Shown here: positions 7,607 through 62,763 of the stretch, piece by piece | Numbering within the stretch: the first letter of the stretch is position 1 | Layout of the letters: the number at the start of each line of letters is the position of its first letter | Origin: a virus | IMG/VR virus record: IMGVR_UViG_3300037147_000032 | Coordinates: 1 to 64,000 of that record | DNA length: 64,000 bases | Direction: 5' to 3' (one strand) | Translations under genes and position numbers: made by a program | The notes under the pieces: generated by a model | The model's database searches: none | Seen by the model: the letters and a program-made list of their open reading frames with translations, nothing else | Told to the model about the DNA's origin: nothing

Positions 7607-7990
7607 ATGGCTGCTCCTGTATTCAACTACCCGGCGATGCAACAAACGGCCGATGAATTGATACGCTATTTTGGAATGGCGGCAATCCTTCGGTCACTTA
7701 CGGGAACTCGGCCTGATCGCCCGTGTACGATAGCGATCATCGAGTATAATCCGCGAGAGAAGCCAAACGAAATGGCGAACCCGACTGATCGCAAGATCGT
7801 CATGTCGCCTCTCGACCCTACAACGGGGCTTGAATTGGTGCTTCCTCCGGATGACGAGCTTGATGCGCTGGTGACATTCGTCCAACCGGCGGGGACAGTC
7901 GAAAACGAGGTTCTACCGATGACGTGCAAGCCGAAGAAGACTTCGCCCGCCGGAATAGACTGTTTGTGGGAATTTACGGTAAGGCGCTAA
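7607..7990 (+). CDS. Head-tail joining/neck protein candidate
   Basis: 127 residues, ATG after AAAAGG. It starts with a segment (MQQTADELIRYFG) followed by an oligonucleotide-fold-like beta region, resembling the short neck or stopper proteins found between connector and tail terminator genes. It ends 1 bp before the next gene. Assignment is positional. Confidence 0.5.
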   Translation: MAAPVFNYPAMQQTADELIRYFGMAAILRSLTGTRPDRPCTIAIIEYNPREKPNEMANPTDRKIVMSPLDPTTGLELVLPPDDELDALVTFVQPAGTVENEVLPMTCKPKKTSPAGIDCLWEFTVRR

Positions 7991-7991
7991 G

Positions 7992-8519
7992 ATGACGACT
8001 ATCGTAGATCGACGCGCAATGATTATTGAACGGCTCGTGACGCTGTTCACAGGCTTCACGGTCCAACTGATCGGCGACCCGGTTCTGAGCCCGGGAGTGA
8101 GCATCACGGCGGGCAATGTTGTCCACAACCGCGATCAACTGCCGGCGGAGAAAGTCCCGGGCATCATCCTTTTGGACGCGGATGAGACCAAGGACCCGAG
8201 GGTTTTCGAGAGACCGCCGGGACGAGCGCTACCTGTCTCCCCGTGCCTGATGCGGATGACGCCTGAGATTTATGTCGTGCTGGATGTACGCACGCCAAAC
8301 AACGCGAACGTAGGCGAGGATTTGAATACGGCACGAGCCGCTCTTTTGGACCTCGTGCTGCACGACGCGACCCTTCTCCAGATAGTGGGCGCGAACGGAC
8401 AGATTATCTACGGCGGTTGCGTCACCGACTTGGCGCGCAACCGGACAATGCGGGGCCAAATGGGATGTATGGTCACTTTTGTATATCCATTTATTCCTAA
8501 CGCCTTAAGTGGTGCTTGA
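7992..8519 (+). CDS. Tail terminator/minor tail protein candidate
   Basis: 175 residues. An N-terminal helix (RRAMIIERLVTLF) is followed by alternating beta strands and a helix with AARAALLDLVLHDATLL, the layout of tail terminator proteins. It precedes the tail tube gene, from which it is separated only by an HNH gene. Role inferred. Confidence 0.5.
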   Translation: MTTIVDRRAMIIERLVTLFTGFTVQLIGDPVLSPGVSITAGNVVHNRDQLPAEKVPGIILLDADETKDPRVFERPPGRALPVSPCLMRMTPEIYVVLDVRTPNNANVGEDLNTARAALLDLVLHDATLLQIVGANGQIIYGGCVTDLARNRTMRGQMGCMVTFVYPFIPNALSGA

Positions 8520-8572
8520 TTTTACGAAGCTAAACATGATACGAATAGAGCTTCTTTAACAGGAGAAGTTCC

Positions 8573-9007
8573 ATGAGTGTCCCAAGAGACTGGATTATTT
8601 GCTCGACAAAGCTGCTTAAGCATTTTCGAGATAGGTATATGGATCACGCTACCCGCGCCAAAAGGCGTGGAATAGGTTTCGAGTTGACATATGAGCAGTG
8701 GATGGAAATCTGGCTCAAGTCAGGTCAGATATTAAATCGAGGAATGGAGTTAGGTCAGTATGTGATGGCTAGAAATAACGACACCGGCCCATATGCCGTT
8801 GGCAATGTTTCTATCATCATGGGAAGCCAGAATGTACATGATGCCAATCTCAGACTATCGCCCGGTTTTTATAAGCGATGGACACCTGAAAGGCGACTTC
8901 AGCATTCAAAAACCCTAACTGGTCGTAAGGTCTCCGAAGAGACGAGAGCTAAGATGGTTGACGCTGCGTATGCGACGTGGGCCGCCCGAAAAGCTGACAG
9001 CGACTAA
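8573..9007 (+). CDS. HNH-family homing endonuclease with NUMOD3-like tail
   Basis: 144 residues, ATG preceded by AACAGGAGAAG. The core RGIGFELTYEQWMEIW, a YVMARNNDTGPYAVGNV segment and a C-terminal GRKVSEETRAKM (NUMOD3-type DNA-binding motif) are typical of phage free-standing homing endonucleases. It is lower in GC than its neighbours and splits two tail genes, indicating acquisition. Confidence 0.8.
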   Translation: MSVPRDWIICSTKLLKHFRDRYMDHATRAKRRGIGFELTYEQWMEIWLKSGQILNRGMELGQYVMARNNDTGPYAVGNVSIIMGSQNVHDANLRLSPGFYKRWTPERRLQHSKTLTGRKVSEETRAKMVDAAYATWAARKADSD

Positions 9008-9021
9008 AATGGAGAAATGCT

Positions 9022-9591
9022 ATGGCAATTGGCGATCAGACGATTGAGGGCTCACTAAATTCGCCGAATATCGGAAATTACTACGTTGGAAAAGGTATCA
9101 TCAGTATCAAGTTGCTCGGTGAAAGCGTCTTCACAGACTGTGGCAACGTTCCGACGTTCGAGTTCATGGCCAAGGTGACGAACCTCGACCACTACTCTTC
9201 GCGAACCGGCGTCCGCGTCAAGGACTTCACCGCCGTCATCGAGATCAGCGGCTCCCTGACCATGGTCTTGGAAGAGTTGACCGCCCGCAACATGGGCTTT
9301 GCGATGCTCGGACTGGCAACTGGCGGACCGTCGCCGTCTCCGGACAGCATCGATATTTTGAGTTCGCCGGTTATTTACGGAACAGTGAAATTCGTCGGTA
9401 CGAACGATATCGGTCCGATCTGGACTGTTACCTTCCCGCTCGTGAAGCTGTCGCCTTCGAAGGCACTCGGCCTGATCCAGAATACGTGGGGCACCATCGA
9501 TCTTGAAGGTGACGTGCTGTTCGATCAATTGTCAAATAGTTTCGGCACCGCGACTGTCACGCAGCCGCTCAACCCGACTAACGTCCTCTGA
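9022..9591 (+). CDS. Major tail tube protein candidate
   Basis: 189 residues, ATG after TGGAGAAATG. The protein is beta-rich with evenly spaced strands and ends in a short Thr/Pro tail. Its size, its position before the assembly chaperones and tape measure, and the terminator-like hairpin behind it fit a tail tube subunit that must be highly expressed. No decisive motif is visible. Confidence 0.6.
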   Translation: MAIGDQTIEGSLNSPNIGNYYVGKGIISIKLLGESVFTDCGNVPTFEFMAKVTNLDHYSSRTGVRVKDFTAVIEISGSLTMVLEELTARNMGFAMLGLATGGPSPSPDSIDILSSPVIYGTVKFVGTNDIGPIWTVTFPLVKLSPSKALGLIQNTWGTIDLEGDVLFDQLSNSFGTATVTQPLNPTNVL

Positions 9592-17842: not shown

Positions 17843-19516
17843 ATGACTTTGACCAGACGATCTCACATAGTTCGCATTGGCATCGGTCCGCCACCGCAAG
17901 CCTATTATATTGACATGGAAGTGCTTGACGCCGTGTCGTTCAGAACGACCGGGGACAAGGAAATGGTTTTGAACCTTCCGGCGACTGATGCCGATCCCTA
18001 CATCGTAGATGATACCGGAGACAATAATCAGAAAACACCTTCGGTCGTAACTGCTACCCGCCGTTCTCACATGAAACGGATCACCGGAGCGCCAGATGAT
18101 ACGGAGTTTGTGGATGTTGAAGTTCTTGACGGCGTCGCTTTCCGGGATGATAGCGGAAAAGAGTGGGTCATGTATTTGCCGGATGATGACAACCTCGATG
18201 TCTACAACACGACAACAGGGCAGGGCGATATAAGCTCAACTCGCCGGGTCCACGATGAGCAACTCTATAGCGATCCAACAGACAAAACTTCGGCCTCCAT
18301 TACAGTCGAGCGATGCGATACGATGTGTTTCAGATCGACCGGCGGCGAAGAAATGGTTATCGTGATGCCTTCGAGTGATGACGGAGTAGACCCCGGCGCG
18401 CTGACAAACGGGGGTGATGTCCAGAGAGCGGACACGGTCACGACACCGCCTGATTATGATCCGAATGGCACCACCGTTGTCCCTCCGCCCAATACTGATC
18501 CGGACATTTACGCGATCTTCCCGCCGGGCAGCAAAGGCCCTCCGACCGGAGACAGCGGCTCTGACAAGACGAAAAATCCGAAGATCGCATGTGGTCCGCT
18601 ATGGTGGCCGCGTGGGATCAGCAAGAAGAGCGGACCATGGTACTGGTACATACCCGTTCAAACCACCATGACGTACAGCATCACGCACACACCGGGCAAG
18701 TATGATTGGGTTGGTGATCCGACTTCCTCCAGTTGGGCAGGGACCCCCTCGACATTGACGCTCGTCTATGCGCCGGGTTTCTTTTTCACAGGCGCGGACG
18801 GTAATGATGAATTCCATGCGTATTCACCTTGGGGCTGGCCAACGCTCGACGCTGCGATCTTAGGCGGCATAGATGGTCTGGATTGGGGCCTCGTAGACTA
18901 CGATGATACGCGGATCGATGATAACCAGCCGAATGGACTTAACGCCACACCCTGCATCCCGGGCGTGAGTGGTGATCCTGACATCTGGCAGATCACCGGC
19001 ATCAAAGCGCCCGATCTTATCAAGCCGATACCGCCCGCGATCAAATGGTCTCCCGGCTCGATCAGCCCGGCCCTCGCCAAGCAAGTAGCATTGGCGTGGC
19101 TCCAGCAATGGAATGCCACATCGACGAACTTCAATAGTATGCATGCGGGCCTAGCCGGGATATATACAGGCCACTACTACTTTATCACATGGCCTGTTGG
19201 GGTTGACAACGGAGGCACGCAGCGTTTCGGGGGAGCCGGCGAAGCGAAGATCGTTCCCTATGCATCAACATCGTTTCACGTTCCGTTGTGGGACCTTACT
19301 GTGTTTCCCGCTCTGACCGGCGGCCGATACATCGGCGGTCTTCCGGGTGATTTCTGGTCCCCTGTCACGAGCTTCACCGACCCAAACGACGGCAGCACCC
19401 ACGACGTTCAGGAGGGAGCAATGGACTACTATGCCGAGATACTCGGTGTGACACAACTCGATCCTAAGAAGTGGGACACGAGCAAACCAGAGAGCCCCAA
19501 ACTCAAGGGCACTTGA
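17843..19516 (+). CDS. Tail protein with three N-terminal repeats
   Basis: 557 residues. Residues 1-190 are three degenerate copies of a 60-70 residue unit that starts TRRSH or TRRVH, has a VEVLDGVAFR-like core and ends in a hydrophobic-LP segment. The rest is an aromatic, Pro-rich domain (GPWYWYIPVQTTMTY, HAYSPWGWPTLDAAI). A tail-tip or fibre base role is inferred from neighbours. Confidence 0.6.
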   Translation: MTLTRRSHIVRIGIGPPPQAYYIDMEVLDAVSFRTTGDKEMVLNLPATDADPYIVDDTGDNNQKTPSVVTATRRSHMKRITGAPDDTEFVDVEVLDGVAFRDDSGKEWVMYLPDDDNLDVYNTTTGQGDISSTRRVHDEQLYSDPTDKTSASITVERCDTMCFRSTGGEEMVIVMPSSDDGVDPGALTNGGDVQRADTVTTPPDYDPNGTTVVPPPNTDPDIYAIFPPGSKGPPTGDSGSDKTKNPKIACGPLWWPRGISKKSGPWYWYIPVQTTMTYSITHTPGKYDWVGDPTSSSWAGTPSTLTLVYAPGFFFTGADGNDEFHAYSPWGWPTLDAAILGGIDGLDWGLVDYDDTRIDDNQPNGLNATPCIPGVSGDPDIWQITGIKAPDLIKPIPPAIKWSPGSISPALAKQVALAWLQQWNATSTNFNSMHAGLAGIYTGHYYFITWPVGVDNGGTQRFGGAGEAKIVPYASTSFHVPLWDLTVFPALTGGRYIGGLPGDFWSPVTSFTDPNDGSTHDVQEGAMDYYAEILGVTQLDPKKWDTSKPESPKLKGT

Positions 19517-19541
19517 CAGTTCCATTAAAACATGGTTAACA
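19513..19541 (+). promoter_or_regulatory. Promoter candidate with perfect CtrA-type site
   Basis: TTGACA at 19513-19518 is followed 17 bp later by TTAACA. Bases 19525-19540 read TTAA, seven bases, TTAAC, a perfect match to the CtrA recognition element of alphaproteobacteria, lying over the spacer and -10 region. It precedes the fibre gene at 19566. Confidence 0.55.
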
Positions 19542-19565
19542 GACAACCCGAAAGGATTTCCCGCC

Positions 19566-20414
19566 ATGCCAATCACTACACTGACGTATCGAACGGCGGA
19601 CGCTACACGTTGGGGCGGCGGCCAAGGCTCTGACCTCGCGGCTGTGACCATCGATCTCAACTTCTGGGCTATTTACACTGCCATCAGTGCGCTCGAAGCT
19701 GCTTCACAGACCACGGTCAGCATCGACTACATTTCGCAGACAGCGGGCAATCAACTTTTCATCCATCTGACCAATCATGCTGTGCTCGGGCCGTTCATCA
19801 TCCCGACCACGCAATGGAACCCGCGTGGTCTCTGGCAGCCGATGACGCCTTATGCCCCGTTCGATGTTGTATCGGACGCTGGCAGTCTTTATCTCGTTAC
19901 GGCTTCGTTTACGAGTGCTTCTACATTCGACCCGCTTGCGACGGATGGGCTCGGCAACCAGCTCTACATTCTTATCCTGTTGCCGCCAGCGGACACGTTG
20001 CCGAACAACGGTGTTGTCGGACAGGGGCTCGTCTATACTGGCGGCTCTCCAGCTTTCGCGGCGTGGCAGTACCGGTATCGTGATCTCGCGCTCTTCATTC
20101 CGGGTCAGCCGCAAGCGGGCTCCGTCTTGATGCAGTATTGCGTCACTGAAGATATGTTTTTTCCGGTCGGGCTCGTGGGCTCAGTTGCATTTGCAGCGAT
20201 CCAAACCATTACGACGGTCTCCTACCCGCTGTTCAAAAACGGCAACGCCATCGGCGCGATCATCTTCAACGGTCCGTCGCCGGACAGCGTTGACGTGCAG
20301 TTCGTGGCGCAGGTTGACTTCGTCGCGGGCGACGTGATCACCATGAACGCTCCGGCGTCTCCGGATGCGCAACAGGCCGGCATTTCGTTCACGCTCGTCG
20401 CCACCTTGACCTGA
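19566..20414 (+). CDS. Tail fibre/spike protein
   Basis: 282 residues, start ATG after AAAGGATTTCCCGCC. Contains a LTNHAVLGPFIIPTTQW segment and a WQPMTPYAPFDVVSDAGSLY motif resembling the carbohydrate-binding-like modules (Y-x-P-x-D-V-V) of phage fibres, and a C-terminal beta domain of the type seen in fibre tips. A host-binding role is inferred. Confidence 0.6.
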   Translation: MPITTLTYRTADATRWGGGQGSDLAAVTIDLNFWAIYTAISALEAASQTTVSIDYISQTAGNQLFIHLTNHAVLGPFIIPTTQWNPRGLWQPMTPYAPFDVVSDAGSLYLVTASFTSASTFDPLATDGLGNQLYILILLPPADTLPNNGVVGQGLVYTGGSPAFAAWQYRYRDLALFIPGQPQAGSVLMQYCVTEDMFFPVGLVGSVAFAAIQTITTVSYPLFKNGNAIGAIIFNGPSPDSVDVQFVAQVDFVAGDVITMNAPASPDAQQAGISFTLVATLT

Positions 20415-22485: not shown

Positions 22486-24048
22486 GTGGGACAAACAGCC
22501 GTGGCCCCCGAAGAGGGCGTAGTCTTCAACGGCAGCACTTTGTCCGGCCCAACTCCCGGTCCGTTTGGATCGGCCGAAGGCGATGTGTTCAATGGAGTGT
22601 CGCTTCCCGGCGACAGCGGCGGCAGCAGCGGCAGCGGTGGTCTTGGTTTAGGCTACGGTACGAACCCTCCAGCGAGCCCCTTCCCGGTTGTTCCTACTCC
22701 CAGTGGTGGCCCGCTGGTCCTCACAGCCATGACACCGGGTCCCACTGCGGTCTTCACACCATACATGCAATACAACGCTGCGTCCGGTGGCACTCCTCCG
22801 TACTCATGGGAGCTAATCGGCGGCGCGCTTCCGTTGGGTACCGACCAGAAGATTTTATCGACGAACGGTGTCCTCGATCAGATTTACGGCAATTTTCTGC
22901 TCCAGACCGGACCATTCAGCTATACGCTCCAAGTCACCGACAGTTCTGGCGTTGTTTCCCTCGCCTATATCGGCAACGACACATATGCGAGCAATCCTAT
23001 CACCACTTTCTCGGGCGGCAGTCTTTCAACAACCAACGACAATCAACTTGCGATACTTGTGTTCGTCTCATCGAATGAAAGCGCCGCATCAGCAGTTGCC
23101 CAGATCACGTCGGTAACGACGAATGGTAACGTGCTGACATTCACGCGTGTCTTCCATGACGAGAGTTTCACCTTCTCTGACAGTGCGGGTGACAGCGGCG
23201 CTCCGGTAGCGACGATCTCAGTTGACATCTTCACTGCCCCCGTGCCTACGCAAATATCGTCCCTTGGTTGGACGGCGCACGGCAATGGCAACGTCGCTCA
23301 TGGCACTGTCATGAGGTTCACTGTCAACGGGCTGGCTGACATCAACCATCCATTCGATCCCGCATTCCCCAACGTCGCGAAGAACCTGACCGGCACGGCG
23401 AGTGCCCCGACGAACACCGGGATCACCACGAGTAATCCGGGAGGGCTTCTGTTCGGCATCACGATCAACCACACCACGGGCGGCGGTGTCGATACCACGC
23501 CTGTACCTGATCCGACTGGCTGGGTTCCGATCCCCGGCGGCACTCAAGACAATAGCGGCGGCTCCAGTGGCTTCTCCCTCATGGCTTCGAACAAAGAAGC
23601 TCCCACGGTGCTGAACAATATCACGGTCACTGATGGGTTCACGGACAATTTCTGGTATCAGGTCATCTTTGCATTCATCGGTTCTCCCGGCGGTTCGCAA
23701 CAGGTCGCTACGGCCACTATCACCGGGGATGTCACACCGGTCATGCCCGGCACTGTCACGTTTGATGGGCCTACGGGAGATGGGAGTGGGAATTTGATCA
23801 CGGGCAGTGGCACCGGTGCTTATTTCATCGTGCCCCCTTACAACATCCTCATGATCGAGATGTTCGCGGGCACTGATGGCCCCACCACCCTCGCATCTAC
23901 GCTAGGTGCACGTTTTTCGTCGGAAGGATCAGAGACAACTATCATTCTCACACCGAGCGATCCCGGCGCTCCGATTATAGGCGGCCCCATGCAATACGCC
24001 ATCGGTGGGGGCAGCCCCGCCGGTCATATCACCTTTACATGGAGTTGA
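22486..24048 (+). CDS. Tail protein with Ig-like (He_PIG-type) domain
   Basis: 520 residues, GTG start 28 bp after the previous gene. After a Gly/Ser-rich leader, residues 85-150 read like a putative Ig domain (GGTPPYSWELIGGALPLG, TLQVTDSSGVVS). A larger beta domain follows with DxFTDNFWYQVIFAFIGS, the signature of phage fibre lectin-like folds. Likely a host-binding tail protein closing the fibre set. Confidence 0.6.
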   Translation: MGQTAVAPEEGVVFNGSTLSGPTPGPFGSAEGDVFNGVSLPGDSGGSSGSGGLGLGYGTNPPASPFPVVPTPSGGPLVLTAMTPGPTAVFTPYMQYNAASGGTPPYSWELIGGALPLGTDQKILSTNGVLDQIYGNFLLQTGPFSYTLQVTDSSGVVSLAYIGNDTYASNPITTFSGGSLSTTNDNQLAILVFVSSNESAASAVAQITSVTTNGNVLTFTRVFHDESFTFSDSAGDSGAPVATISVDIFTAPVPTQISSLGWTAHGNGNVAHGTVMRFTVNGLADINHPFDPAFPNVAKNLTGTASAPTNTGITTSNPGGLLFGITINHTTGGGVDTTPVPDPTGWVPIPGGTQDNSGGSSGFSLMASNKEAPTVLNNITVTDGFTDNFWYQVIFAFIGSPGGSQQVATATITGDVTPVMPGTVTFDGPTGDGSGNLITGSGTGAYFIVPPYNILMIEMFAGTDGPTTLASTLGARFSSEGSETTIILTPSDPGAPIIGGPMQYAIGGGSPAGHITFTWS

Positions 24049-24049
24049 A

Positions 24050-25048
24050 ATGAGCCCGCATGTTTACGTACAGGGAATGCACGGCCTTGGCGATACGATC
24101 CATCAGCGCGCGGTCATCCGTCAAAAACTAGCAGCGGGAAACAAGGTCACGCTGGAAACATCGTGGCCGTCGCTGTATCACGATCTCGTCGGCGACAACT
24201 TCAAGCTCGCGCGACGTGGCAAGGTGGGGCTCCACTCTCAAGACAAGAACTCACAACGCGAGAGCGATAAGTTCTCCGCGATGCGCTTCGGCGTTGGCAT
24301 GCAGGCGATGCGCGTGGCCTATAGTGGCCAACAGGTGTTGCGCACACCGAGCAAGACAGTTCTGGAGGCGATGTGCAATGCGACGGGGACAAGCTACGAG
24401 GAGGCTGATTATCGCCTTCCTGTTCCGAGTATCTGGTACCGACTTCTTTGCGAAGCACTCGGACCGATCCCGGTCGCCGGCTACGAAAAACCGTGGCTCA
24501 TATATCGGCCCCTTGTCGCCCGACCTGAATGGCGCGGCTCAATACTCCGTAATGCTGACCCCGCGTCTTACTACACTCTCTTTGGAGAAATACGGGACCG
24601 CTATTTTGTCATCTCGATCGCGGACCTCGAAGCAGGCAAGGAATGGCTCGCGTACCCCGAACAAGAGATCAAAGCGGACTTGACTTTCCACCATGGAGAG
24701 TTGGTTTGCGAAGCTCTGGTTGCTCTTTTCAAGCAATCCGACCTCGTGTTCACTTCGAGCGGCTTCCCGGCTATCCTCGCGCCGGCAGTCGGAACGCCCT
24801 GCATTTCCATCGTTGGAGGCTACGAATACCCGGGCTGCCATGACAGCGCCGCGCGCTTCGCTCCCTATTTATCAATTGGCCCGAGAACCTCGTGCTCGTG
24901 CTGGACATCCACATGTCGTCAAGTGTGTGACAAGTCATTCGATCTTACGGTCGCTCGGGCCAAGATTGATAAGTTTCTGTCCAAAACAGTTATTCAAATC
25001 TCGTATCCCCAAGTTGGGGTCGAACGTACCCAGATTGGGGTCGTATGA
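24050..25048 (+). CDS. Glycosyltransferase family 9-like protein
   Basis: 332 residues, ATG at 24050 with GGAGTTGAA upstream. The N-terminus MHGLGDTIHQRAVIR matches the GDx(I/L) nucleotide-sugar transferase start of heptosyltransferase-like GT9 proteins, and FTSSGFPAILAPAVGTPCIS matches the C-terminal donor-binding region. It should transfer a sugar onto a glycan or protein. It opens the glycan cluster and overlaps the next gene by 4 bp. Confidence 0.7.
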   Translation: MSPHVYVQGMHGLGDTIHQRAVIRQKLAAGNKVTLETSWPSLYHDLVGDNFKLARRGKVGLHSQDKNSQRESDKFSAMRFGVGMQAMRVAYSGQQVLRTPSKTVLEAMCNATGTSYEEADYRLPVPSIWYRLLCEALGPIPVAGYEKPWLIYRPLVARPEWRGSILRNADPASYYTLFGEIRDRYFVISIADLEAGKEWLAYPEQEIKADLTFHHGELVCEALVALFKQSDLVFTSSGFPAILAPAVGTPCISIVGGYEYPGCHDSAARFAPYLSIGPRTSCSCWTSTCRQVCDKSFDLTVARAKIDKFLSKTVIQISYPQVGVERTQIGVV

Positions 25049-25683
25049 CTTTCGCTCACGTGCAACGCCCGCCAACATTCCGGCTCGTCCAGCGCGCACC
25101 GACCACGCAAGAGGCGGCCATAGTCATGGGTGGTGGCGGCGATCCGTTCGCGGAGTACGAACAGGCCCGCGATCTCTGCGCAAGGGCTGGCCGTACTGTC
25201 ACTATCTTCGCTGGCAACGACATGATAGAAAAGTTCCCACACTACGTCAATCACGCCGTCACTCTTCACCCTGATAAACTCCAGTTGTGGCTGCCTCGCC
25301 GCCGCGCCGCCGGGTTCAATGTCCCGGACAAGGTCTGGGCACATCGGGAGTACGCAGGCGCTGTGACGGACTGGACGCGGGACTGGGCTGGCTCAACCGG
25401 CCTGTTTTGCGGCAAGATCGCGCGGGAGCTAGGGTTCGTCCACATCATCCTGTGCGGCGTACCTATGACGGAAGAGGCGAACCACTTCATCCGCAATGAA
25501 CCGTGGAAACACGCCAACGGTTTTATTCGGGGCTGGAACGCGCATCTGGAAGAGTTGAGACCCTACGTCCGCAGTTACAGCGGATGGACGAAAGAACAAC
25601 TGGGAGAGCCTACCGAGCAATGGCTTCGAGAAACCATTGTTGATCAGCATTCGAACCTGCCGCAGACAGGACTACGAGCATGA
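25045..25683 (+). CDS. Conserved phage protein of the glycan cluster
   Basis: 212 residues, ATG overlapping the previous TGA. It has a Rossmann-like start (AAIVMGGGGDPFAEYEQARD) and repeated short conserved-looking blocks (TIFAGNDMIEKFP, LHPDKLQLWL, DWAGSTGLFCGKIA, LCGVPMTEEANHF). The pattern resembles MptE/DUF115-like sugar or glycan enzymes, but this is a weak call. Context suggests nucleotide-sugar or glycan handling. Confidence 0.5.
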   Translation: MTFAHVQRPPTFRLVQRAPTTQEAAIVMGGGGDPFAEYEQARDLCARAGRTVTIFAGNDMIEKFPHYVNHAVTLHPDKLQLWLPRRRAAGFNVPDKVWAHREYAGAVTDWTRDWAGSTGLFCGKIARELGFVHIILCGVPMTEEANHFIRNEPWKHANGFIRGWNAHLEELRPYVRSYSGWTKEQLGEPTEQWLRETIVDQHSNLPQTGLRA

Positions 25684-25802
25684 AACGAAATTTTGGTATT
25701 CCGTCAGAAGTCGGACCCGCAAAGCCGGGATGCGTGTTCTTGTACTTCGTGTTGGCAATGCTGTGCTTCATGGCCGCCGGGGCCGTCAAGTCGTGCACAT
25801 GA
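25680..25802 (+). CDS. Small membrane protein (40 aa)
   Basis: ATG and stop overlap the genes on both sides (ATGA, ATGA). One membrane segment, FLYFVLAMLCFMAAGAV, preceded by a Gly/Pro-rich N-terminus. Function unknown. Confidence 0.55.
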   Translation: MKRNFGIPSEVGPAKPGCVFLYFVLAMLCFMAAGAVKSCT

Positions 25803-25927
25803 AGCCCGACCCAGCTAATGACTACATCCTGCCGATCATCGGCATCTGTTTGCTGGTGTGGGTTGTCTATCGAGGCTGGCTACCGTTCGAAGTCGTGAAA
25901 GCAATGATCGAGGACATAACGAAATGA
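25799..25927 (+). CDS. Small membrane protein (42 aa)
   Basis: ATG overlaps the previous stop and its TGA overlaps the gmd start. One membrane segment ([19 protein letters not shown]) followed by an amphipathic helix. With the preceding gene it forms a coupled pair of single-pass peptides, perhaps anchoring the glycan enzymes to the membrane; this is inference. Confidence 0.55.
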
Positions 25928-26946
25928 CAACAGCTTTAATTACGGGTATTGCCGGACAGGACGGCAGTTACTTGGCCGAGTTGCTGCTCGACAAGGGCTA
26001 TGAGGTTCACGGCATCAAGCGGCGGGCTTCCAATTTCAACACCGCGCGCATCGATCATCTGCCTGATCTCAAGCTGCACTATGGCGACATGACGGATGGA
26101 TCGAGCCTGATACGCATCTTGGATAGCGTATGCCCGGATGAGATTTACAATCTCGCTGCACAGTCTCACGTGCAAGTCTCGTTCGAAACGCCGGAGTACA
26201 CTGCGAACGCTGACGGATTGGGTGCGATGCGTCTGCTTGAGGATATTCGCATAAGCGGAGCCAATGCGCGGCTCTATCAGGCCTCTACGTCAGAACTTTA
26301 CGGCAATGCTCTTGCAGGCGGCCACGGGGGAAGTCTTCTCAATGAAAAATCGCCGTTCATGCCGCGCTCGCCCTACGCAGTGGCGAAGCTCTATGCCTAC
26401 TGGATCACCGTGAACTATCGCGAGGCTTATGGCATCCATGCGTCGAATGGCATATTGTTCAACCATGAGAGCCCACGGCGTGGTCCGACGTTCGTGACGC
26501 GCAAGATCACTCAGGCGGTCGCCGCGATCTCGGAAGGCAAGCAGGACTGCATGTGGCTGGGCAACATAGACAGCCATCGGGACTGGGGCCACGCCCGCGA
26601 CTACGTCGAGGCGATGTGGCTGGCACTCCAGCAAGACAAGCCGGATGATTACGTCGTCGCGACTGGCGAAGCCTACTCCGTCCGCGAGTTCGTCGAGATA
26701 GCGTTCGAAATGGTTGGTATCGAAGTCGGCTGGTTCAACAAAGGCATCCATGAGATCGGCGTCAACACCAAGACCATGCGGCCGGTGGTTCGGATCGACC
26801 CGAAGTATTTTCGTCCGACTGAGGTTGACTTTCTACGTGGAGATGCTACCAAGGCGCGCGAAAAGCTCGGCTGGGCTCCCAAGGTCAGCTTCCGCGACCT
26901 TGTGCACGAGATGGTAGTCAGCGACGTGAAGGCATTGACCAAATGA
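25924..26946 (+). CDS. gmd: GDP-mannose 4,6-dehydratase
   Basis: 340 residues. It converts GDP-mannose to GDP-4-keto-6-deoxymannose. The Rossmann motif [15 protein letters not shown] at residues 8-22, [11 protein letters not shown] near 57, the STSELYG catalytic Ser/Thr-Glu region, the [11 protein letters not shown] (YxxxK) motif, [17 protein letters not shown] and [22 protein letters not shown] are all family hallmarks. Length is normal. It is coupled to neighbours on both sides and works with the fcl-type gene at 28636. Confidence 0.95.
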
Positions 26947-27752
26947 ATGAGGATACTCGCGTCGTAGTTTGCTGTTACGAGGGTGACAGCCATCAGGTCA
27001 TCGAAGCTTTGGAGTTCTTTCTCCATCACGGGTGCCCGCTCACGGTTCTGTCCCCTGAGGATAGCAAAGCCGATGTGCGATATCCCGGCGTCGATAATAT
27101 CTTTGGGGGCAAGCGCGCTTACATCGGACAGGACAGCCTTGATCGGCAGGCCATTCATCTTCGCCTCCTGTTACAGTATCCTGAGAACCACTTTCTGATC
27201 CACGACGCCGACAGCGTCTTGCTCGATCCGAAAATCCCTGACTATCTTTACGCCGAACCGGACGTAGTCTGGTCAAACCAAGTCGATGACGCGATCCCGG
27301 AGCATCAGGGCTCCTTTCCCGAAGGCTGGCCGCATGTCGCGTTTCAGCCGCCATATTTCTTGAGCCGCAAAACAATCGAAGCGATGCTAGTCCCATACGA
27401 TCAACATCACCCATTTACAGTCGCATCGCCCATGATGCCTTTCATCGATTTCTTCATGGTGCAGTTGACCATGTGCGCTGGCCTGCCGTGGAAGCGGATG
27501 ATGGACTGTATCTCCTGCCCGATCTCGATTGACCTACGCAAAGTCAATCCTCCCAAGACTGATCTCGACACGTATGACATGGGCATGAAGATCGCGATGG
27601 AAAGCGTTCTCAACCGGGGCACGAGCGTGCTTCACTCGGTCAAGAATTCGGTCGCCATCCGCAAGTTGGCGGCTGCACGTCAGGAATATCTCAAGAACCA
27701 CCCTGACGCCGCGCCAGTATTTTTCCCCGCCCCGGTGATCCGAAAGGGCTGA
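26943..27752 (+). CDS. GT-A-like glycosyltransferase
   Basis: 269 residues, ATG overlapping the gmd stop. [20 protein letters not shown] begins a nucleotide-sugar fold and [12 protein letters not shown] provides a DxD-type metal/nucleotide-sugar motif, followed by a region with conserved Trp/Pro. It probably transfers the sugar made by the adjacent enzymes. Family not fixed. Confidence 0.6.
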
Positions 27753-27754
27753 TC

Positions 27755-28639
27755 GTGCTCGACCTTCCCAACGTCACGCTGCTCTTCGTCGAAACCCGCG
27801 CGCACGGGATAACCGAGCGTGTGATCGCTGATTGTATCTCAAAGTGTAATTTCGGCGAGATTTTGCTTTATACCGACAAGCCTGATCTCATTCGGTTCAA
27901 TCCTAACAGCCGCGCACGCACTATCCTCGTGCCTGACTTCCCTGACAAGAGAGCGGCTGGACAGTTCTACTATCAGCATGCATGCGCTGGGATCACCACG
28001 GACTTCGCGCTGATGCTAGAATGGGACGCTGGCATCTATGACGCCTCGAAGTGGAAACCGGAATTCTTGGATTATGACTACGTCGGAGCGCCTTGGCAAG
28101 TGCGTCCCAACGAACGCGATGATGTAGGCAATGGTGGCTTCACGATCATGTCCAAGCGTCTCGGGACGTTCCTGCATGAGAACGCCGACCGCTATCCAGT
28201 CTACACGGATGTCGATCTCTGCCGCAGACATCGTGTGGGGCTGGAGGGCGAAGGTTTCAAGTGGCCATCCAACACTCTCGCCGGACAATTCTCATGGGAG
28301 CTTTTACCGCGTGACCCAGATCACTTTGGTTTCCACGGTACGTTCAACTGGCCCACCATGCTGCCCCGAAAAGAGATTATCGAACGGGCCAAGATCATGT
28401 TGACATCGCCTTACCTCATAGGCAAGATGCGCGACCTGATCATTCGTGGAAAAGCAACATGGCTTGAGAAAGAACTGGGCGAAGAGCTTTGGACAAAATA
28501 TCTCAGCTATCATCCGGCAATCCCAAACCGTCATGGACGTCCTCAATTCTCATCTCAACAACGTCAGAACATGGGCCGCCTTCTAGCGGAACGACAAGCG
28601 GCTCATATGGTTCTCCAATCGAAAGGGCTAAAAGCGTGA
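27755..28639 (+). CDS. DUF5672-type glycosyltransferase-like protein
   Basis: 294 residues, GTG start. LEWDAGIYDASKWKPEFLDY, DYVGAPWQVRPN and VGNGGFTIMSKRL are the signature of the DUF5672 family found in sugar-transfer contexts. Ends in a GTGA overlap with the fucose synthase gene. Donor and acceptor unknown. Confidence 0.7.
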   Translation: MLDLPNVTLLFVETRAHGITERVIADCISKCNFGEILLYTDKPDLIRFNPNSRARTILVPDFPDKRAAGQFYYQHACAGITTDFALMLEWDAGIYDASKWKPEFLDYDYVGAPWQVRPNERDDVGNGGFTIMSKRLGTFLHENADRYPVYTDVDLCRRHRVGLEGEGFKWPSNTLAGQFSWELLPRDPDHFGFHGTFNWPTMLPRKEIIERAKIMLTSPYLIGKMRDLIIRGKATWLEKELGEELWTKYLSYHPAIPNRHGRPQFSSQQRQNMGRLLAERQAAHMVLQSKGLKA

Positions 28640-29568
28640 TCAAATCAAACTCCTGTATCGTCGTCACCGGGGCGAACGGCCTCGCCGGCTCCGCCGTTGT
28701 CGATCACCTGAAAAAGGCCTACACGTGCGTCGTGCCTGTTACGCGTGGCGTCTGCGATCTCAAGAACCACGGGATGGTCGCAGAGACCTTCCGGCGTATC
28801 GGACCTGAGTATGTCTTCCACGCCGCCGCGACGGTCTATGGCTTGGGCGGTAACATGAGAAATCAGGGGAAGTCATTTCTCGAAAACACCCTGATCAATA
28901 CCGCCGTGATCGACGCGGCGCAGAAGTGCGGGGTCAAGAAGTTCATCGCCATGGGCACCAACGCGGTCTACCCGTGGCCGCCAGTTCTGCCATACCGTGA
29001 GGAAACCATCTTCGATGGTCGGCCGCACGATGGCGAAGCTGGATATGGTCACGCGAAGCGCCACATGCTTGCGATGCTCGAAGCATACAACGAGAGCTAC
29101 GGGATGGACTACACCTATCTTGTCTCTGGCAATCTCTTCGGCCCTCGCGATACATTCGATATCGAGAACGGCCACGTGCTGCCGTCCCTGATCGCGAAGT
29201 TCTATGAGGCGTCCCAAAGCTGGGACGAGCTGGTCAGCGTTTGGGGCGATGGTTCGCCGACACGAGACTTCATGTATAGCCTCGATCTTGCGCGCATCGT
29301 TCGCATGGTGCTGGAGAACGACACGACTGGAGCGATCAACATCGGCAGTGGCGACCGGCGCAGCATCGACTACGTCTGCCGGCGGCTGTGCAGCATCAGT
29401 GGTGTCGACTACGACCGCGTTCGCTATGACAAGACCAAGCCGAACGGGCGACCGGACTGCTACGCCGATCTCTCGAAGCTTCGAGCAGCCGGTTTTTCTC
29501 TGGAGTGGGGATTTGATGAGGCTTTGAAATCGACTTACAAGTGGTTCGCCGCTTCGCAGGCTGCCTAG
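28636..29568 (+). CDS. fcl: GDP-L-fucose synthase
   Basis: 310 residues from a GTG overlapping the previous stop; upstream in-frame codons only read antisense-free sequence of the previous gene. The GANGLAGSAVV nucleotide-binding motif, HAAATVYGLGGNM, YGHAKRHML (YxxxK), and GNLFGPRDTFD match the GDP-4-keto-6-deoxymannose epimerase/reductase. It completes GDP-L-fucose synthesis started by gmd. Confidence 0.92.
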   Translation: MIKSNSCIVVTGANGLAGSAVVDHLKKAYTCVVPVTRGVCDLKNHGMVAETFRRIGPEYVFHAAATVYGLGGNMRNQGKSFLENTLINTAVIDAAQKCGVKKFIAMGTNAVYPWPPVLPYREETIFDGRPHDGEAGYGHAKRHMLAMLEAYNESYGMDYTYLVSGNLFGPRDTFDIENGHVLPSLIAKFYEASQSWDELVSVWGDGSPTRDFMYSLDLARIVRMVLENDTTGAINIGSGDRRSIDYVCRRLCSISGVDYDRVRYDKTKPNGRPDCYADLSKLRAAGFSLEWGFDEALKSTYKWFAASQAA

Positions 29569-33565: not shown

Positions 33566-33820
33566 ATGTGGACAGGCTACACCAGTCTCCTGACAGCGCA
33601 TATCATTTACCGCCGACCGGATCATCTATGGCTTCTCCAAGAGTACATCTATCAGGATTATGACGTGCTCCCGGACTTTCCCCGGCTGATGAAGTTCCTG
33701 CGCTTCTGGCGAGACAAACTCGATGGACCGCTCGTCGCGGTCCGGGTCGGGCACGTTCTCGACCGCGCGCAGATCGTTCTCGATCTTCACGACTTTCAAT
33801 TCGCGGGTCGGCCTCACTGA
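33566..33820 (+). CDS. Conserved small phage protein (84 aa)
   Basis: ATG 2 bp after the spanin-like gene. Aromatic N-terminal half (MWTGYTSLLTAHIIYRRPD, LLQEYIYQDYDVLPDFPRLM) and a helical second half (FLRFWRDKLDGPLVAVRVGH). Not recognised as any known family. Confidence 0.6.
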   Translation: MWTGYTSLLTAHIIYRRPDHLWLLQEYIYQDYDVLPDFPRLMKFLRFWRDKLDGPLVAVRVGHVLDRAQIVLDLHDFQFAGRPH

Positions 33821-40410: not shown

Positions 40411-40602
40411 TCAGGCTCGTGTCCCATGACGCAGTGAACGGATGTCTTCGAGGATGCCGTCCAAGAAACCAACTAGGAAGGACGGGTCGTTGTCTTCACT
40501 CATCTCTTCGGCGATGCCGACGAAGTCTCGAATGGTATGGCCGGCGCGATACGAAGCCAAGCCCTGAATGTAGCGAGCTTCTTCAATGATATGCTTTGAC
40601 AT
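40411..40602 (-). CDS. Hypothetical protein (63 aa)
   Basis: ATG at 40602 with GGAGAG 11 bp upstream. Acidic, helical peptide (EEARYIQGLASYRAGHTIRD). No family recognised. It has its own upstream spacer and the terminator behind it. Confidence 0.55.
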   Translation of the reverse strand: MSKHIIEEARYIQGLASYRAGHTIRDFVGIAEEMSEDNDPSFLVGFLDGILEDIRSLRHGTRA

Positions 40603-40929
40603 AGGCGGGGGCTCTCCAAATATGGTTAATATCTGAAGTGCCTACACGAACTTAGGAAGGAATGCAAGAGGAAAAACAAAAACGCCGCCGAAGACCTTTT
40701 GGGCATCGACGGCGGCGCTCTGGTAATACATAGCCTATTCCGTTGCATCCCGGCTTGAGTTTTAAGCCCTCGGAGAAAAATGCAATTCGTTCGCCCGAGT
40801 TCATCCGGCGGGGTTGGCCATTCGCGAGTACATCGCATATTTCGGCGATGCTGTCAACCCCGAAAACACTCTGTGATCATATTCGCTGAATAGCCTATAT
40901 TCGCTGGCGAGTAAATATTATCCCATTGT
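40603..40929 (-). promoter_or_regulatory. 327-bp non-coding spacer with promoter, direct repeat and terminator
   Basis: No convincing gene. On the - strand a perfect TTGACA lies at 40857-40852 with a weak -10 GATGTA 17 bp downstream, inside CATCG...CGATG inverted repeats. A direct repeat ATATTCGCTG occurs at 40879 and 40897. A strong terminator lies at 40679-40722. The ~110-nt interval between could be a small RNA. Confidence 0.4.
40679..40722 (-). terminator. Strong rho-independent terminator on the - strand
   Basis: CGCCGCCG and CGGCGGCG pair around a 16-nt loop, and TTTTTGTTTTT follows on the - strand. It ends transcripts coming from the 40930-41427 side, or a short RNA from the TTGACA promoter. 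Confidence 0.75.
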
Positions 40930-44027: not shown

Positions 44028-44358
44028 TTGCTATTCCGATGTTCCGGGGTTTCTGGGATCGGCCCCACGCCGTACTTTTTCGGGCGTGTCCGACATCCAC
44101 AACATACACCCCCCGATCAGGACTGCAAGCGGAGCCTGAGTTGATGGTTAACAAATGGTAAAGGCCCGCGCGTTTCCGCAGCGGGCCTGTTACCTCTCGA
44201 CAGAGGGATCGATAACACTTTGCCGCGTCTGCGGTATCCTTGAGCGTTTATGCGTTTCGATCTCGCGATCTCCGCACGGCCCGTGAGTATGCGAGGGCTT
44301 ATCCGCAGGATGCCTTTCGTTGCCGAGCGACGAACCCGACTGCAACGCCCTCGCCGGG
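44028..44358 (-). promoter_or_regulatory. 331-bp spacer with stem-loop and CtrA-like element
   Basis: No gene is supported. The - strand carries TTTA, CCATTTG, TTAAC at about 44143-44158, one mismatch from the CtrA element, upstream of the 44027 gene. A stem-loop (AGGCCCGC / GCGGGCCT) sits at 44162-44188. Bases 44190-44358 hold short open frames without starts or ribosome sites. Confidence 0.4.
44162..44188 (-). terminator. Terminator-like stem-loop
   Basis: AGGCCCGC pairs with GCGGGCCT over an 11-nt loop; on the - strand CTTTACC follows, a weak T tract. It would end the transcript of the 44359-44706 gene. Confidence 0.5.
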
Positions 44359-50924: not shown

Positions 50925-53900
50925 TTATTTCCGAAGCCGGGGCCCTGCCCAGCCTTCGGCGGCGATTGGCATTCCGGGACACCAGACCGGCACGATGGAC
51001 ATGATACACTCAAATTCCTTCACTGTGCAACTGCCTATTGCAGCTTGGGCGATGACCTCATCGTGTATTGATAAAAGCAGATCGAACTCAGGCATTTCGT
51101 CTACACGAAACATAGCTTCGGCGAGAAGATCGCGCGAGCTAGCCTGATCGTAGTTCTCAACGAGCGAACCTCCGTGCGTGCCGCAACGCTTCCATTTTTT
51201 AGTATAGGTATCCCTGCCCATGAAAGACAGATGCGGCGAGACAAAACTCTCCGGCGGATCAGGCAGCAAGCGCTTGTGTTGTTTCTCCGCGAGCTTCTCC
51301 GCATGCCAGCGGACGCGATGCTGTGGTACGCTCTTCTTGGCTGGAAAGTTGACAGTCGTCGGCTTCCCGCGCTCATTGATGGCAGCGAAGCGGTACGTGA
51401 CGCGCTGGCGGACTTGCGGATCGAGATAGGCGAGCAGGCGGCCCGAGGGCAGGCGGCAATGCAGGAAGCGGCCGGCCATGAAGTAGCTGACCGAGCCAAT
51501 GCCGAACTCATCCCCGCCGCAATAGTATTCCCCGCCGCAATAGTATTCCCCGCCGGGATCGAGCACGGCGGAGATCGCAGCCTTCTCGGTGTCGCGCCAG
51601 AGTTGGGGGATTTCGGGGTAGAGGTCTTTGCGATAAATGCGCACTACTTCCTGACAAAACTCATCCTCAAGCCAGATACCCTCATCCGCCAACACAGTGG
51701 CTTGGAATTTTTCCCAGCCCATCGCGTAGCCCAGCCCGAGTATTGAGTTATGAACTAGAAGCGGTCCGCGATCAGTCAGGATTGTGAAGCGATGACGCGG
51801 CCCCGCATTTGCAAGATCGTAAACATGCTTCAAGTTTGTTGATGCGTTCCTGCATCTCAAAAATCTGGCGTCGGTTTTGTAAGTTGACTTGTTTGGTACA
51901 GAACCGTAAATTACCCGGCTCATAGCCTCGCTCATTCTTGATCCGATCAAGCTCAAGAGCGGGTTGATCCCAACCGTCAAGCGTGATGATATACTGCAAG
52001 AACTGTCGTCGATCTGTACGCCATGGTTCATGAACGAAGATACCTCTTCCTCCATAGTGGTGGAACACATCGCATGTCTTGGTGTGACAGCGTTGAATGC
52101 AACTTGAGATGCGATTGAGAAGCCGAGCCCTATCAGCTTCATCAGGGACGATGTCTGCGTATCCGTAATACTTCTTACGCCAATAGGCGGCTTTCTTTTT
52201 GGCGCATGCATTGCATCGTGTAGACTTTCCGGACAAGAGGTTGGTTGACAAAAGGGAGTGAACCGAAGCCCCGCATGAGCATTGGACGAGCATGCGAGCA
52301 ACGCCTCCACGCTCTCCGTAGGTATATCCAACCACGGTAAGTTCTCCGAACCGTGTCCCAATGCTCGGCATTGTAATTTTTCGTTTTGCGCCACATCGAG
52401 GGCCGAATGCCAACGGCAGCCCTCCGATATCGGATGGTCGTAAGTCATATCTACACCCATCATATCGAGTGTTGGTTTCGTACCTTGGTCTAGTAGCCCC
52501 TGATGACTTACCCATTCAATCCCATCCCATAACTGATCTTCTAACGTGATCTTGGTTATAGGATGGAAGCCTCGCCGCGTCAAGACAAGAGTATCGGCCC
52601 CGAGGCATTTCTTTCCGAGGGCTCGCTCGGTTTTGTCAGCTTTGGTGATCTGACGTTTATAGATCGCGCTTCCCATATCGATGTATGGGTCACCGCCGCT
52701 GTTGAACAGGTCGAGCAGACGTGAGCAGCCCGACAGCCACGCGAGCTTGCGGGCTTCGATGGCGTTGAAGTCGGCGGCGTATAGCTCGTTCCCCGGTCGT
52801 GCGATCAGTGCGCCACGGCATGCCTTGGCGAGCATGACCATCGGCTCGCCCCAGATCATCGTGATCAGATCATGGTCGAGCCCCATGATATCATCCCACG
52901 CTTCAACCATATCCTTGGAGTAGCCACGAACGAAGTTGTGCGGCTGGACACCCTTGCCAGACCACCGGCCGGTTCGATCCGCGCCGTTGAAGAGCATGAT
53001 ATCGTGGAGCGCATCATCGTCCGGACAGACACTGTTGCGCATCTGCTTATACTTGGCGACAGATGACCGGTTGACTTCCATGCAGATACGGAGCGACCGC
53101 TCGATATTCTCCGCTTCGGGACCGAGCGCGTCCCACTTCTCCCGGGCAGCGGGGGCGTTGTGCTCACGGGCCTCTTCGCCAGCCTTGGTCGGAACCCCGT
53201 CGAGCGCAAAACTGAGCGTGTCGGCCTTGGTGTCGAGCAAGGGCTCGCCACCGACCTCAGCGAGCCGCTCATTCACCCATTTCAGGAAGGCTTGGCGTTG
53301 GGAGCCCTTCTGGATAGCCCCACCGGTGAGGTCGCTAAGCTCTTCATTGAGCCTCTTGGCCTCTTGGCCTGCATATTCGAAAGCCGTATTGGCGCCCGAG
53401 ATGTCGAGCGCGATGCCTCGAAGGTTCATCCGCTGGTCCATAAGCCAGTATTCACGTTCGCGTGGGATCATTTCTGGACAGAAATTGGACAAGCCGCGTT
53501 CGGCCCGCACGTCCTGTTTGCAGTATTCCCAGTTTGCGCGGTGCTCGTGCTCTTCCTCACAGAACTCTATAATTCCGTCGCCACGTTTCTTGCCACGTCG
53601 GACCATCGGCTTCGAGAGCTTATTGATCAGACGTCTGCCATCCGCAATCTTACGGTCGGGTAATCCGAGCGCGTCAACGGCGTCATCGAGAGAGCGGGGC
53701 AGAGACAAACATGAGGCTTTTGCCGCCGAACAGTACAACTGGTCCAGCGTGAGCTTGACATTGAATTCGGGAAATTCGACTGTGAAGCACTCATTCCATA
53801 TATTGAATTCGAAGCCGGCATTGTGTGCTTCGACTGGCTCACCGCTTCGGATGCGTTCGATTAGCTCGTCAGGGCGCTTGCTCTTGGGCATCGGCGTGGC

Positions 53901-54059
53901 CCATGTCGGGTGGGCACGGTGCCAGAGATAAACTTTTTCCTCCTGATCGAATGACCAAGCAAGGCAAAGTGCTTGCGTGCTCGTGTCGAGCGCGTAGCGA
54001 CGCGCGCCCCAACGTTTTAAGTCAGCAGCACTTCGGGTTTCAAAGTCCAAGAAAATCAC
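50925..54059 (-). CDS. PolA-type DNA polymerase with intein
   Basis: 1044 residues with intein, 757 after splicing. GTG start overlaps the upstream stop. A DEDDy 3'-5' exonuclease spans residues 1-200 (MIFLDFETRSA; AHNAGFEFNIWN; YCKQDVRAE). Polymerase motif A is ADFNAIEARKLAW, motif B is RALGKK interrupted by the intein then SILGLGYAMG, motif C is LLLSIHDEVIA. It replicates the phage DNA and is active only after splicing. A six-residue GGEYYC duplication lies in the fingers-palm region. Confidence 0.9.
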   Translation of the reverse strand: MIFLDFETRSAADLKRWGARRYALDTSTQALCLAWSFDQEEKVYLWHRAHPTWATPMPKSKRPDELIERIRSGEPVEAHNAGFEFNIWNECFTVEFPEFNVKLTLDQLYCSAAKASCLSLPRSLDDAVDALGLPDRKIADGRRLINKLSKPMVRRGKKRGDGIIEFCEEEHEHRANWEYCKQDVRAERGLSNFCPEMIPREREYWLMDQRMNLRGIALDISGANTAFEYAGQEAKRLNEELSDLTGGAIQKGSQRQAFLKWVNERLAEVGGEPLLDTKADTLSFALDGVPTKAGEEAREHNAPAAREKWDALGPEAENIERSLRICMEVNRSSVAKYKQMRNSVCPDDDALHDIMLFNGADRTGRWSGKGVQPHNFVRGYSKDMVEAWDDIMGLDHDLITMIWGEPMVMLAKACRGALIARPGNELYAADFNAIEARKLAWLSGCSRLLDLFNSGGDPYIDMGSAIYKRQITKADKTERALGKKCLGADTLVLTRRGFHPITKITLEDQLWDGIEWVSHQGLLDQGTKPTLDMMGVDMTYDHPISEGCRWHSALDVAQNEKLQCRALGHGSENLPWLDIPTESVEALLACSSNAHAGLRFTPFCQPTSCPESLHDAMHAPKRKPPIGVRSITDTQTSSLMKLIGLGFSIASQVAFNAVTPRHAMCSTTMEEEVSSFMNHGVQIDDSSCSISSRLTVGINPLLSLIGSRMSEAMSRVIYGSVPNKSTYKTDARFLRCRNASTNLKHVYDLANAGPRHRFTILTDRGPLLVHNSILGLGYAMGWEKFQATVLADEGIWLEDEFCQEVVRIYRKDLYPEIPQLWRDTEKAAISAVLDPGGEYYCGGEYYCGGDEFGIGSVSYFMAGRFLHCRLPSGRLLAYLDPQVRQRVTYRFAAINERGKPTTVNFPAKKSVPQHRVRWHAEKLAEKQHKRLLPDPPESFVSPHLSFMGRDTYTKKWKRCGTHGGSLVENYDQASSRDLLAEAMFRVDEMPEFDLLLSIHDEVIAQAAIGSCTVKEFECIMSIVPVWCPGMPIAAEGWAGPRLRK
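51514..51549 (-). repeat. Perfect 18-bp tandem duplication in the polymerase gene
   Basis: Two adjacent copies (51514-51531, 51532-51549) encode GGEYYC twice. The perfect identity indicates a recent in-frame slippage. Confidence 0.85.
51747..52607 (-). mobile_element. Intein in polymerase motif B
   Basis: 287 residues. It starts with Cys1 (CLGADTLVLTRRGFHPIT, block A), has block B TYDHPISEGCRWH with its His, and ends with VYDLANAGPRHRFTILTDRG then LLVHN (blocks F and G), followed by Ser+1. All splicing residues (Cys1, block B His, penultimate His, Asn, Ser+1) are present. The central ~180 residues look unlike any intein domain because that DNA encodes an endonuclease in another frame. Confidence 0.9.
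51772..52371 (-). CDS. HNH endonuclease nested inside the intein, other frame
   Basis: 199 residues from ATG 52371 (MPSIGTRFGELTVV); a longer frame starts at ATG 52515 with a G-rich ribosome-like site. Zinc-finger start with CSCGASVHS and CNACAKKK, then RCHTKTCDVFHHYGGRGIFV, LELDRIKNERGYEPGNLRFC and QVNLQNRRQ, the typical phage HNH homing domain. It lies wholly within the 51747-52607 intein, in a different frame from the polymerase. Confidence 0.85.
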   Translation of the reverse strand: MPSIGTRFGELTVVGYTYGERGGVARMLVQCSCGASVHSLLSTNLLSGKSTRCNACAKKKAAYWRKKYYGYADIVPDEADRARLLNRISSCIQRCHTKTCDVFHHYGGRGIFVHEPWRTDRRQFLQYIITLDGWDQPALELDRIKNERGYEPGNLRFCTKQVNLQNRRQIFEMQERINKLEACLRSCKCGAASSLHNPD

Positions 54060-55166: not shown

Positions 55167-55195
55167 CCGTTAGCAGGCCGTTAACCATGTGTCAA
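55167..55195 (-). promoter_or_regulatory. Promoter candidate with CtrA-like element upstream of the SSB gene
   Basis: On the - strand TTGACA (55195-55190) is followed 17 bp later by TAACGG. The site TTAG, seven bases, TTAAC at 55170-55185 is one mismatch from the CtrA element and covers the spacer and -10, the same geometry as the site at 19513. The same TTGACA-N17-TAACGG pair is at 62598-62626. Confidence 0.5.
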
Positions 55196-60993: not shown

Positions 60994-61485
60994 CTACATG
61001 AGGTCGTCTTCGGGGGTCGTGGCAGCGGGGGCAGAGCCCTCGGTCTGCAACGCGACCTGACAGGCCTCATAGACCTTGTCGTAGTTTTCCGGCTTGAGGT
61101 CCGTGACCTTCTTCACGCCGCCGCCATCCTGATCGAGGATGTCAGCCGCGTCCTGCTTGCCAAGGCTGGCATTGGTCGCGACATCCCGAATTTTCTCCCG
61201 GACCTGTTCGATGGTATATTTGCCGTTCGGTCCTTTGGTGCCAGCCGGCGGGCCACCTTTGGTCTTCGCAGCGGTAGCAGCGGCGGCGTCGGCCTTCGCC
61301 TTGACTTCGGCAGCGGCCTTAGCGGCAGCGGCCTTGGCATCGGGCGTGGCAGTCGTCCCGGGCTTGCCAGCGCCGGCAACAGTGGCAGGACCGGGCTTGA
61401 GAGCGACGGGGGCTGGAGCCTTGAGCACAGCAGCATGGATATCACTGAGCTTTTTCGAGATTTCGGTGAGAAGGGCGTCGGACAT
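60994..61485 (-). CDS. Ala/Lys-rich protein with conserved C-terminal domain
   Basis: 163 residues from ATG 61485 with GGAG upstream. A helical start, a long Ala/Lys/Pro linker (KAAAAKAAAEVKAKADAAAA), and a C-terminal YTIEQVREKIRDVATN...LKPENYDKVYEACQ domain seen in other phage early proteins. Function unknown. It lies just below a CtrA-type site. Confidence 0.6.
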   Translation of the reverse strand: MSDALLTEISKKLSDIHAAVLKAPAPVALKPGPATVAGAGKPGTTATPDAKAAAAKAAAEVKAKADAAAATAAKTKGGPPAGTKGPNGKYTIEQVREKIRDVATNASLGKQDAADILDQDGGGVKKVTDLKPENYDKVYEACQVALQTEGSAPAATTPEDDLM

Positions 61486-61500
61486 AGGGGACAACTCCGG

Positions 61501-61516
61501 TTAAGAATTCATTAAC
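61501..61516 (+). promoter_or_regulatory. Perfect CtrA-type element upstream of the 61485 gene
   Basis: TTAA, GAATTCA, TTAAC. It lies 16-31 bp upstream of the ATG of the - strand gene at 61485, between its ribosome site and a TTGACA on the - strand at about 61559-61554. Binding there would affect the early operon. Confidence 0.6.
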
Positions 61517-62734: not shown

Positions 62735-62763
62735 TTGCAATGGTTAACGAGAAGTGCTAGGCA
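62735..62763 (+). promoter_or_regulatory. Promoter candidate for the right-edge + operon
   Basis: TTGCAA, 17 bp containing TGGTTAAC, TAGGCA, 26 bp upstream of the GIY-YIG ATG. The -10 match is weak. Confidence 0.3.

Follow-up and report, generated by a model that had tools for sequence, protein, structure and literature searches.

The locus considered here raises the question of whether a phage can tie the expression of its late genes to the cell cycle of its host. The stretch analysed, called the window in the following, comprises 64,000 nucleotides of a 64,542-bp virus contig. In it a preliminary description had noticed a perfect match to the recognition sequence of CtrA, which in alphaproteobacteria is the master regulator of the cell cycle, in the promoter of a tail-fibre gene. 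Our data indicate that a CtrA operator is likely to lie over the -10 element of this sigma-70-type late promoter and that CtrA of the host would repress it. Since the CtrA word is found over the fibre promoter and before other phage genes as well, late gene expression of the phage is probably gated by the cell-cycle state of the host.

The fibre promoter and other sites in the window

A TTGACA promoter with TTAA-N7-TTAAC over its spacer and -10 was confirmed at 19513-19541. The -35 hexamer TTGACA (19513..19518, plus strand) shares bases with the stop codon of the gene before it and is followed at 17 bp by TTAACA (19536..19541, plus strand), a candidate -10 by sequence and spacing that is a poor match to the sigma-70 -10. 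The full CtrA-type dyad TTAA-N7-TTAAC, with the sequence TTAAAACATGGTTAAC, occupies 19525..19540 (plus strand) and its left TTAA (19525-19528) is specific to the window. The CtrA half-site, ATGGTTAAC (its reverse complement being GTTAACCAT), covers the -10 at 19532..19540 (plus strand) and is the conserved element. Downstream there is a Shine-Dalgarno-like AAAGGA (19551-19556), followed by the ATG at 19566 of a tail-fibre-like gene of 282 aa (19566..20414, plus strand). The naming of this gene as a late fibre gene is reasonable, being weakly supported by its place within a structural block and by a match to PHROG tail fibre (E=1.6e-7). Orthologues of the fibre gene in the related contigs G002, G003 and G004 are 49-54% identical, and no nucleotide match to positions 10000-34000 of the window was found among 50,697 phage records.

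It had been estimated that a perfect match is expected by chance about 0.5 times per window. This is too high, as the window has a GC content of 56.6%, and shuffling gives about 0.1. TTAA-N7-TTAAC has three matches in the window, namely the 19525 site and a palindrome at 61500-61516 counted on both strands, against a mean of 0.10 in dinucleotide shuffles, none of 100 of which reached three. For TTAA-N7-TTAA, two sites were observed with 0.11 expected, and again none of 100 shuffles reached two. The comparison with shuffled sequence that had been proposed thus bears out the site, with two independent sites in the window against about 0.1 per shuffled window. Half-sites occur six times in the window, where 0.53 would be expected.

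The palindromic full site GTTAATGAATTCTTAAC (61500..61516, minus strand) lies at about +8 to +22 of a TTGACA(61558-61553)-N17-CTATGT promoter, before a phrog_7721 gene to which no function is assigned (60994..61485, minus strand). It is kept in G002, where the gene product is 60% identical, and is absent from G003 and G004, and so appears operator-like yet evolutionarily labile. At 55180..55188 (minus strand) ATGGTTAAC follows TTGACA (55195-55190) without a gap, and the -10 holds a partial second half (CTAAC, N7). The gene served by this promoter encodes a Gp2.5-like ssDNA-binding protein (54464-55114), and TTAA-type sites are present at its promoter in G002, G003 and G004 also. Another copy of ATGGTTAAC (62740..62748, plus strand) is found directly behind a TTGCAA -35, before a NUMOD3 (homing-endonuclease-type) gene; the window encodes three NUMOD3 proteins, one of them at 62735-63532 (plus strand). 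Two further half-sites carry no strand assignment. One (40622..40630) is close to the start site of the minus-strand gene 40411-40602, an arrangement common to G002 and G006. The other (44144..44152) lies upstream of a minus-strand TTGCAG...GTATGT promoter, and related arrangements in G002 and G022 carry the full N7 dyad.

Conservation and enrichment of the half-site in related phages

Searches of IMG/VR with the fibre protein and the upstream proteins found no relatives, and an alignment search with the tail protein gave 62 related loci. The fibre gene was located in 24 of 34 contigs; three very distant matches were set aside and 20 distinct upstream regions were compared. In ten of the 20, TTGACN is followed 12-15 nt on by GGTTAAY. 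The latter stands directly behind TTGAC in two (L123, L128), is inverted in another two (L122, L130) and is absent from six. When the ten promoters of the first kind, that of the window included, were aligned, TTGAC and GGTTAA were found to be invariant, a YGGTTAAY core lay over the -10 in all ten and ATGGTTAAY was present in nine. The fibre orthologues behind them share about 49-64% protein identity. The left TTAA was not found in the nine other promoters, so that the two dyad halves are not conserved together at N7 in orthologous promoters, and the full N7 dyad was ruled out as the conserved unit. As GGTTAA is invariant and no aligned promoter but that of the window has the left TTAA, it is the half-site and not the N7 dyad that defines the element. 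The reverse complement of ATGGTTAAY is TTAACCAT, which matches the published CtrA half-site (PMC3692519, PMC6180460). The CtrA reading of the preliminary description is therefore supported in part, for the half-site, which is enriched and conserved, whereas the full TTAA-N7-TTAAC dyad has not been kept in evolution.

The words were counted in 15 contigs of the phage group (1.12 Mb), several of them fragments, with a home-made gene caller. In noncoding DNA 56 copies of TTAACCAT were found where 2.4 are expected, the relatives not being phylogenetically independent in such counts, and coding DNA held 8, which makes the word 32-fold denser in noncoding than in coding DNA; of 69 half-sites, 56 were noncoding. 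An unbiased count of noncoding 8-mers placed TTAACCAT among the three most enriched, and the two ranked above it, TAACCTTA and TTAACCTT, come from arrays of TTAACC. Within 100 bp of a gene start were 38 of the 56 noncoding half-sites, compared with 37% of random noncoding positions, and with its flanks the word has the majority consensus AANATGGTTAAYR. The N7 spacing also stands out, with 22 TTAA pairs in the 15 contigs against 0-5 at N4-N6, N8 and N10-N14, spacings that the arrays do not use, and TTAA-N7-TTAAC has 24 matches in 34 relatives against 3 for the reversed control. The link to CtrA had been made to depend on an enrichment of sites upstream of genes in this phage or its relatives; the enrichment is strong and the link stands.

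The half-site word occurs in both orientations and in several places: over the -10, between the -35 and the -10, ahead of the -35, and past the start. Its position and orientation differ even between the promoters of orthologous genes. A gene with a product starting MALPDKHPEY has the motif before it in G002, G004, G006, G014 and G022; in G002 a gene adjoining this site (56669-58378) matches the portal of phage phiCbK. In the portal-type promoters of G002, G006 and G014, and also in L123, the word stands directly behind TTGAC and a separate -10 follows downstream.

The relatives G002-G005 contain gaps of about 1.0-1.35 kb between mostly divergent genes, packed with TTAACC repeats (G002 84867-86210; G003 24949-26020; G004 22551-23582; G005 7973-9277). 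These arrays are made up of TTAACCTTAA-N3-TTAAGGTTAA palindromes at spacings of N2, N3, N9 and N15, not N7. The 1312-bp gap of Brevundimonas phage Delta has a TTAACCTTAA/TTAAGGTTAA array with the same unit design. It was suspected from the N2 and N9 spacing that the gap array is unrelated to CtrA; the array of Delta, with its shown CtrA binding, weakens this doubt and does not settle it.

Probable CtrA control and rival explanations

Control of alphaproteobacterial phages by host CtrA was published in 2022, when Mascolo et al. showed that CtrA binds and regulates in phiCbK, Delta and Cp1R7A-A1, with repression in Delta and activation in phiCbK and Cp1R7A-A1 (PMC9437464). CtrA binding and repression were shown for the gap promoter of Delta, and most of the published phage sites are located in terminal repeats or gaps, close to genes without a known function (PMC9437464). 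What is new here is an uncultivated phage group with conserved putative half-sites on the promoters of virion and replication genes. The same predicted operator layout is present in the Caulobacter phages phiCbK and CcrColossus and in Delta. The first 50 kb of phiCbK hold four half-sites (0.16 expected; 26-fold) and three N7 dyads. CcrColossus has TTGACA-N12-ATGGTTAACAG and TTGACA-TTAACCAT, and the portal gene of both phiCbK and CcrColossus is preceded by TTGACA-N7/8-TTAACCAT. Delta has six half-sites, and TTAACCAT lies between its gp14 and major capsid genes. No half-site was found in 50-kb stretches of the beta-/gammaproteobacterial and Rhodobacterales comparison phages RDJL3, RcRudolph, AAT-1 and Donnerlittchen. 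RDJL3 and RcRudolph, the closest named phages by replication genes, infect alphaproteobacteria, yet lack the word in these stretches.

The phages with lytic deferment (the LPEG phages phiCbK, vB_BsubS-Delta and Mesorhizobium phage Cp1R7A-A1) are alike to the present group in their over-represented intergenic CtrA sites near promoters. Theirs are full dyads, concentrated in gaps or terminal repeats next to genes whose function is not known (PMC9437464), whereas here conserved half-sites lie over or beside the core promoters of fibre, portal and ssDNA-binding protein genes; also, the gap region is missing from the window contig, the array being known from relatives. Sphingomonas phage vB_StuS_MMDA13, compared by its description in PMC9437464, has a 12-bp gap repeat that ends in GTTAACCAT and overlaps predicted CtrA sites, but this is a cluster of direct repeats as against single sites in many promoters here. 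In Caulobacter, half-sites over the -10 mark CtrA-repressed promoters, such as ctrA P1 and mipZ P2, with TTAA at -14 in ctrA P1 (PMC4287350). TTAA is likewise found over the -10 of the fibre promoter and is conserved in ten orthologues; it would lie at about -13 if the start is taken as 35 bp from the -35. In this case the promoter is a predicted one and belongs to a phage. That the phage group works in the manner of CtrA control is supported by these sequence features. In the Rhodobacter gene transfer agent, too, host CtrA influences the expression of phage-like structural genes, in that case via a separate activator and not via an operator in the structural promoter.

The best reading of the GGTTAA element is that of an operator and not only a -10, because the word takes varied positions and orientations, even in orthologous promoters, and matches the published CtrA half-site. 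A sigma-70-type late promoter, TTGACA-N17-TTAACA, would drive the tail-fibre-like gene, with the half-site ATGGTTAAC (GTTAACCAT on the other strand) as the functional core and the neighbouring TTAA completing a dyad in the window phage. In a host that is presumably an alphaproteobacterium with CtrA, the phosphorylated protein could cover the -10 and block RNA polymerase while CtrA is high, and the promoter would fire when CtrA falls, so that virion gene expression would be gated by the cell-cycle or motility state of the host. A half-site over the -10 predicts such repression by CtrA~P, after the published Caulobacter transcription start site data (PMC4287350); the direction of regulation at the fibre promoter is inferred from position. 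Half-sites behind the -35, upstream of it or downstream of the start may give other outputs of CtrA at other phage genes.

It could be argued that GGTTAAY is the plain -10 of the late promoters of this group, read by the housekeeping sigma factor or a modified polymerase, with no regulator involved. Its position 12-15 nt behind TTGACN in ten fibre orthologues is where a -10 is expected, and -10 matches score higher in promoters with GGTTAA than in those without. We consider this explanation unlikely, as TTAACR makes a poor -10, the same word follows TTGAC immediately and is itself followed by a separate -10 in G002, G006, G014 and L123, it is inverted in L122 and elsewhere is placed ahead of the -35 or past the start, it recurs inside the gap array of Delta, and most TTGAC promoters of the group do without GGTTAA. 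A comparably small likelihood is given to an operator for a repressor or activator that the phages encode themselves. Many of their proteins have no known function, the word is specific to the phage group and dense TTAACC arrays between divergent genes are what an autoregulated phage system might have. Against this, no CtrA-type DNA-binding domain (Trans_reg_C, PF00486) was found in 14 contigs, on which ground a phage-encoded CtrA-like regulator was rejected; the same word, equal to the published half-site, is present in phiCbK, CcrColossus and Delta despite largely different gene content; and at the gap promoter of Delta it is CtrA that binds and represses (PMC9437464).

Chance, by which one perfect match in 64 kb would have no function, is very improbable. 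A single dyad match has about a 10% chance of arising per window and the left half is not conserved, but there are two dyad sites in the window, both in promoters, the right half is conserved in ten orthologues that have diverged to about 49-64% protein identity, and relatives hold many times the expected noncoding copies (56 against 2.4). It should be noted that this refutes chance for the half-site only, not for the extra left TTAA of the window copy.

Earlier examples of CtrA control in phages concern a few promoters, those of genes without a known function. Should half-sites over or beside the -10 prove to gate identified virion genes in this uncultivated group, and in phiCbK-like phages also, 'lytic deferment' would become directly testable. 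We tentatively propose, at somewhat less than even likelihood, that several groups of phages with CtrA-bearing hosts, namely phiCbK/CcrColossus, Delta and the uncultivated group, have in common a composite operator, 'TTGAC + CtrA half-site', before virion genes such as portal, capsid and fibre. The host cell cycle would then license virion production itself, in addition to early genes whose function is not known. The half-site layout could further serve as a sequence signature for finding CtrA-controlled phages and guessing their hosts.

The host and other genes of the window

The pointers to an alphaproteobacterial host are indirect. For the helicase, polymerase, nuclease and ssDNA-binding protein, Roseobacter and Rhodobacter phages are among the best relatives that have a name. 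A Usg-family gene (PF06233) at 33575-33754 (33566-33820, plus strand) is present in the window phage and four relatives (5 of 17 phage contigs), and among 14 control genomes only Caulobacter has Usg. No related prophages were found in GTDB genomes. A GDP-mannose dehydratase gene was considered as a pointer to the host and rejected; plasmids of alphaproteobacteria make up most of its top matches, but it is a widespread gene. The nucleotide-sugar genes at 25858-29568 (plus strand; GDP-mannose 4,6-dehydratase and its neighbours) lie inside the structural block and are conserved in relatives. The tail protein at 9022-9591 (plus strand) matches 10 Ruegeria phage records and is weakly similar (~28%) to the major tail proteins of Salmonella phages of the Siskin-/BSPM4 type, which may hint at a Chi-like flagellotropic tail.

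GANTC occurs five times in the window where 318 copies are expected. In several relatives not one copy of GANTC occurs over 60-94 kb, and G023 lacks only GAWTC. This near-absence was not accepted as evidence of CcrM/GcrA since it is not specific; CCWGG (one copy), CTCGAG, CTGCAG, GGATCC and GAGCTC (none) are avoided in the window too, so that general restriction avoidance is likelier than a CcrM/GcrA link.

The DNA polymerase gene (50925-54059, minus strand) has an insertion of ~285 aa after about residue 484 that is absent from relatives; it begins with CLGADTLV and ends with VHN|S, as is typical of an intein. One protein of the window matches Tad3, an anti-defence inhibitor of type I Thoeris (PF25185, E=2.5e-27).
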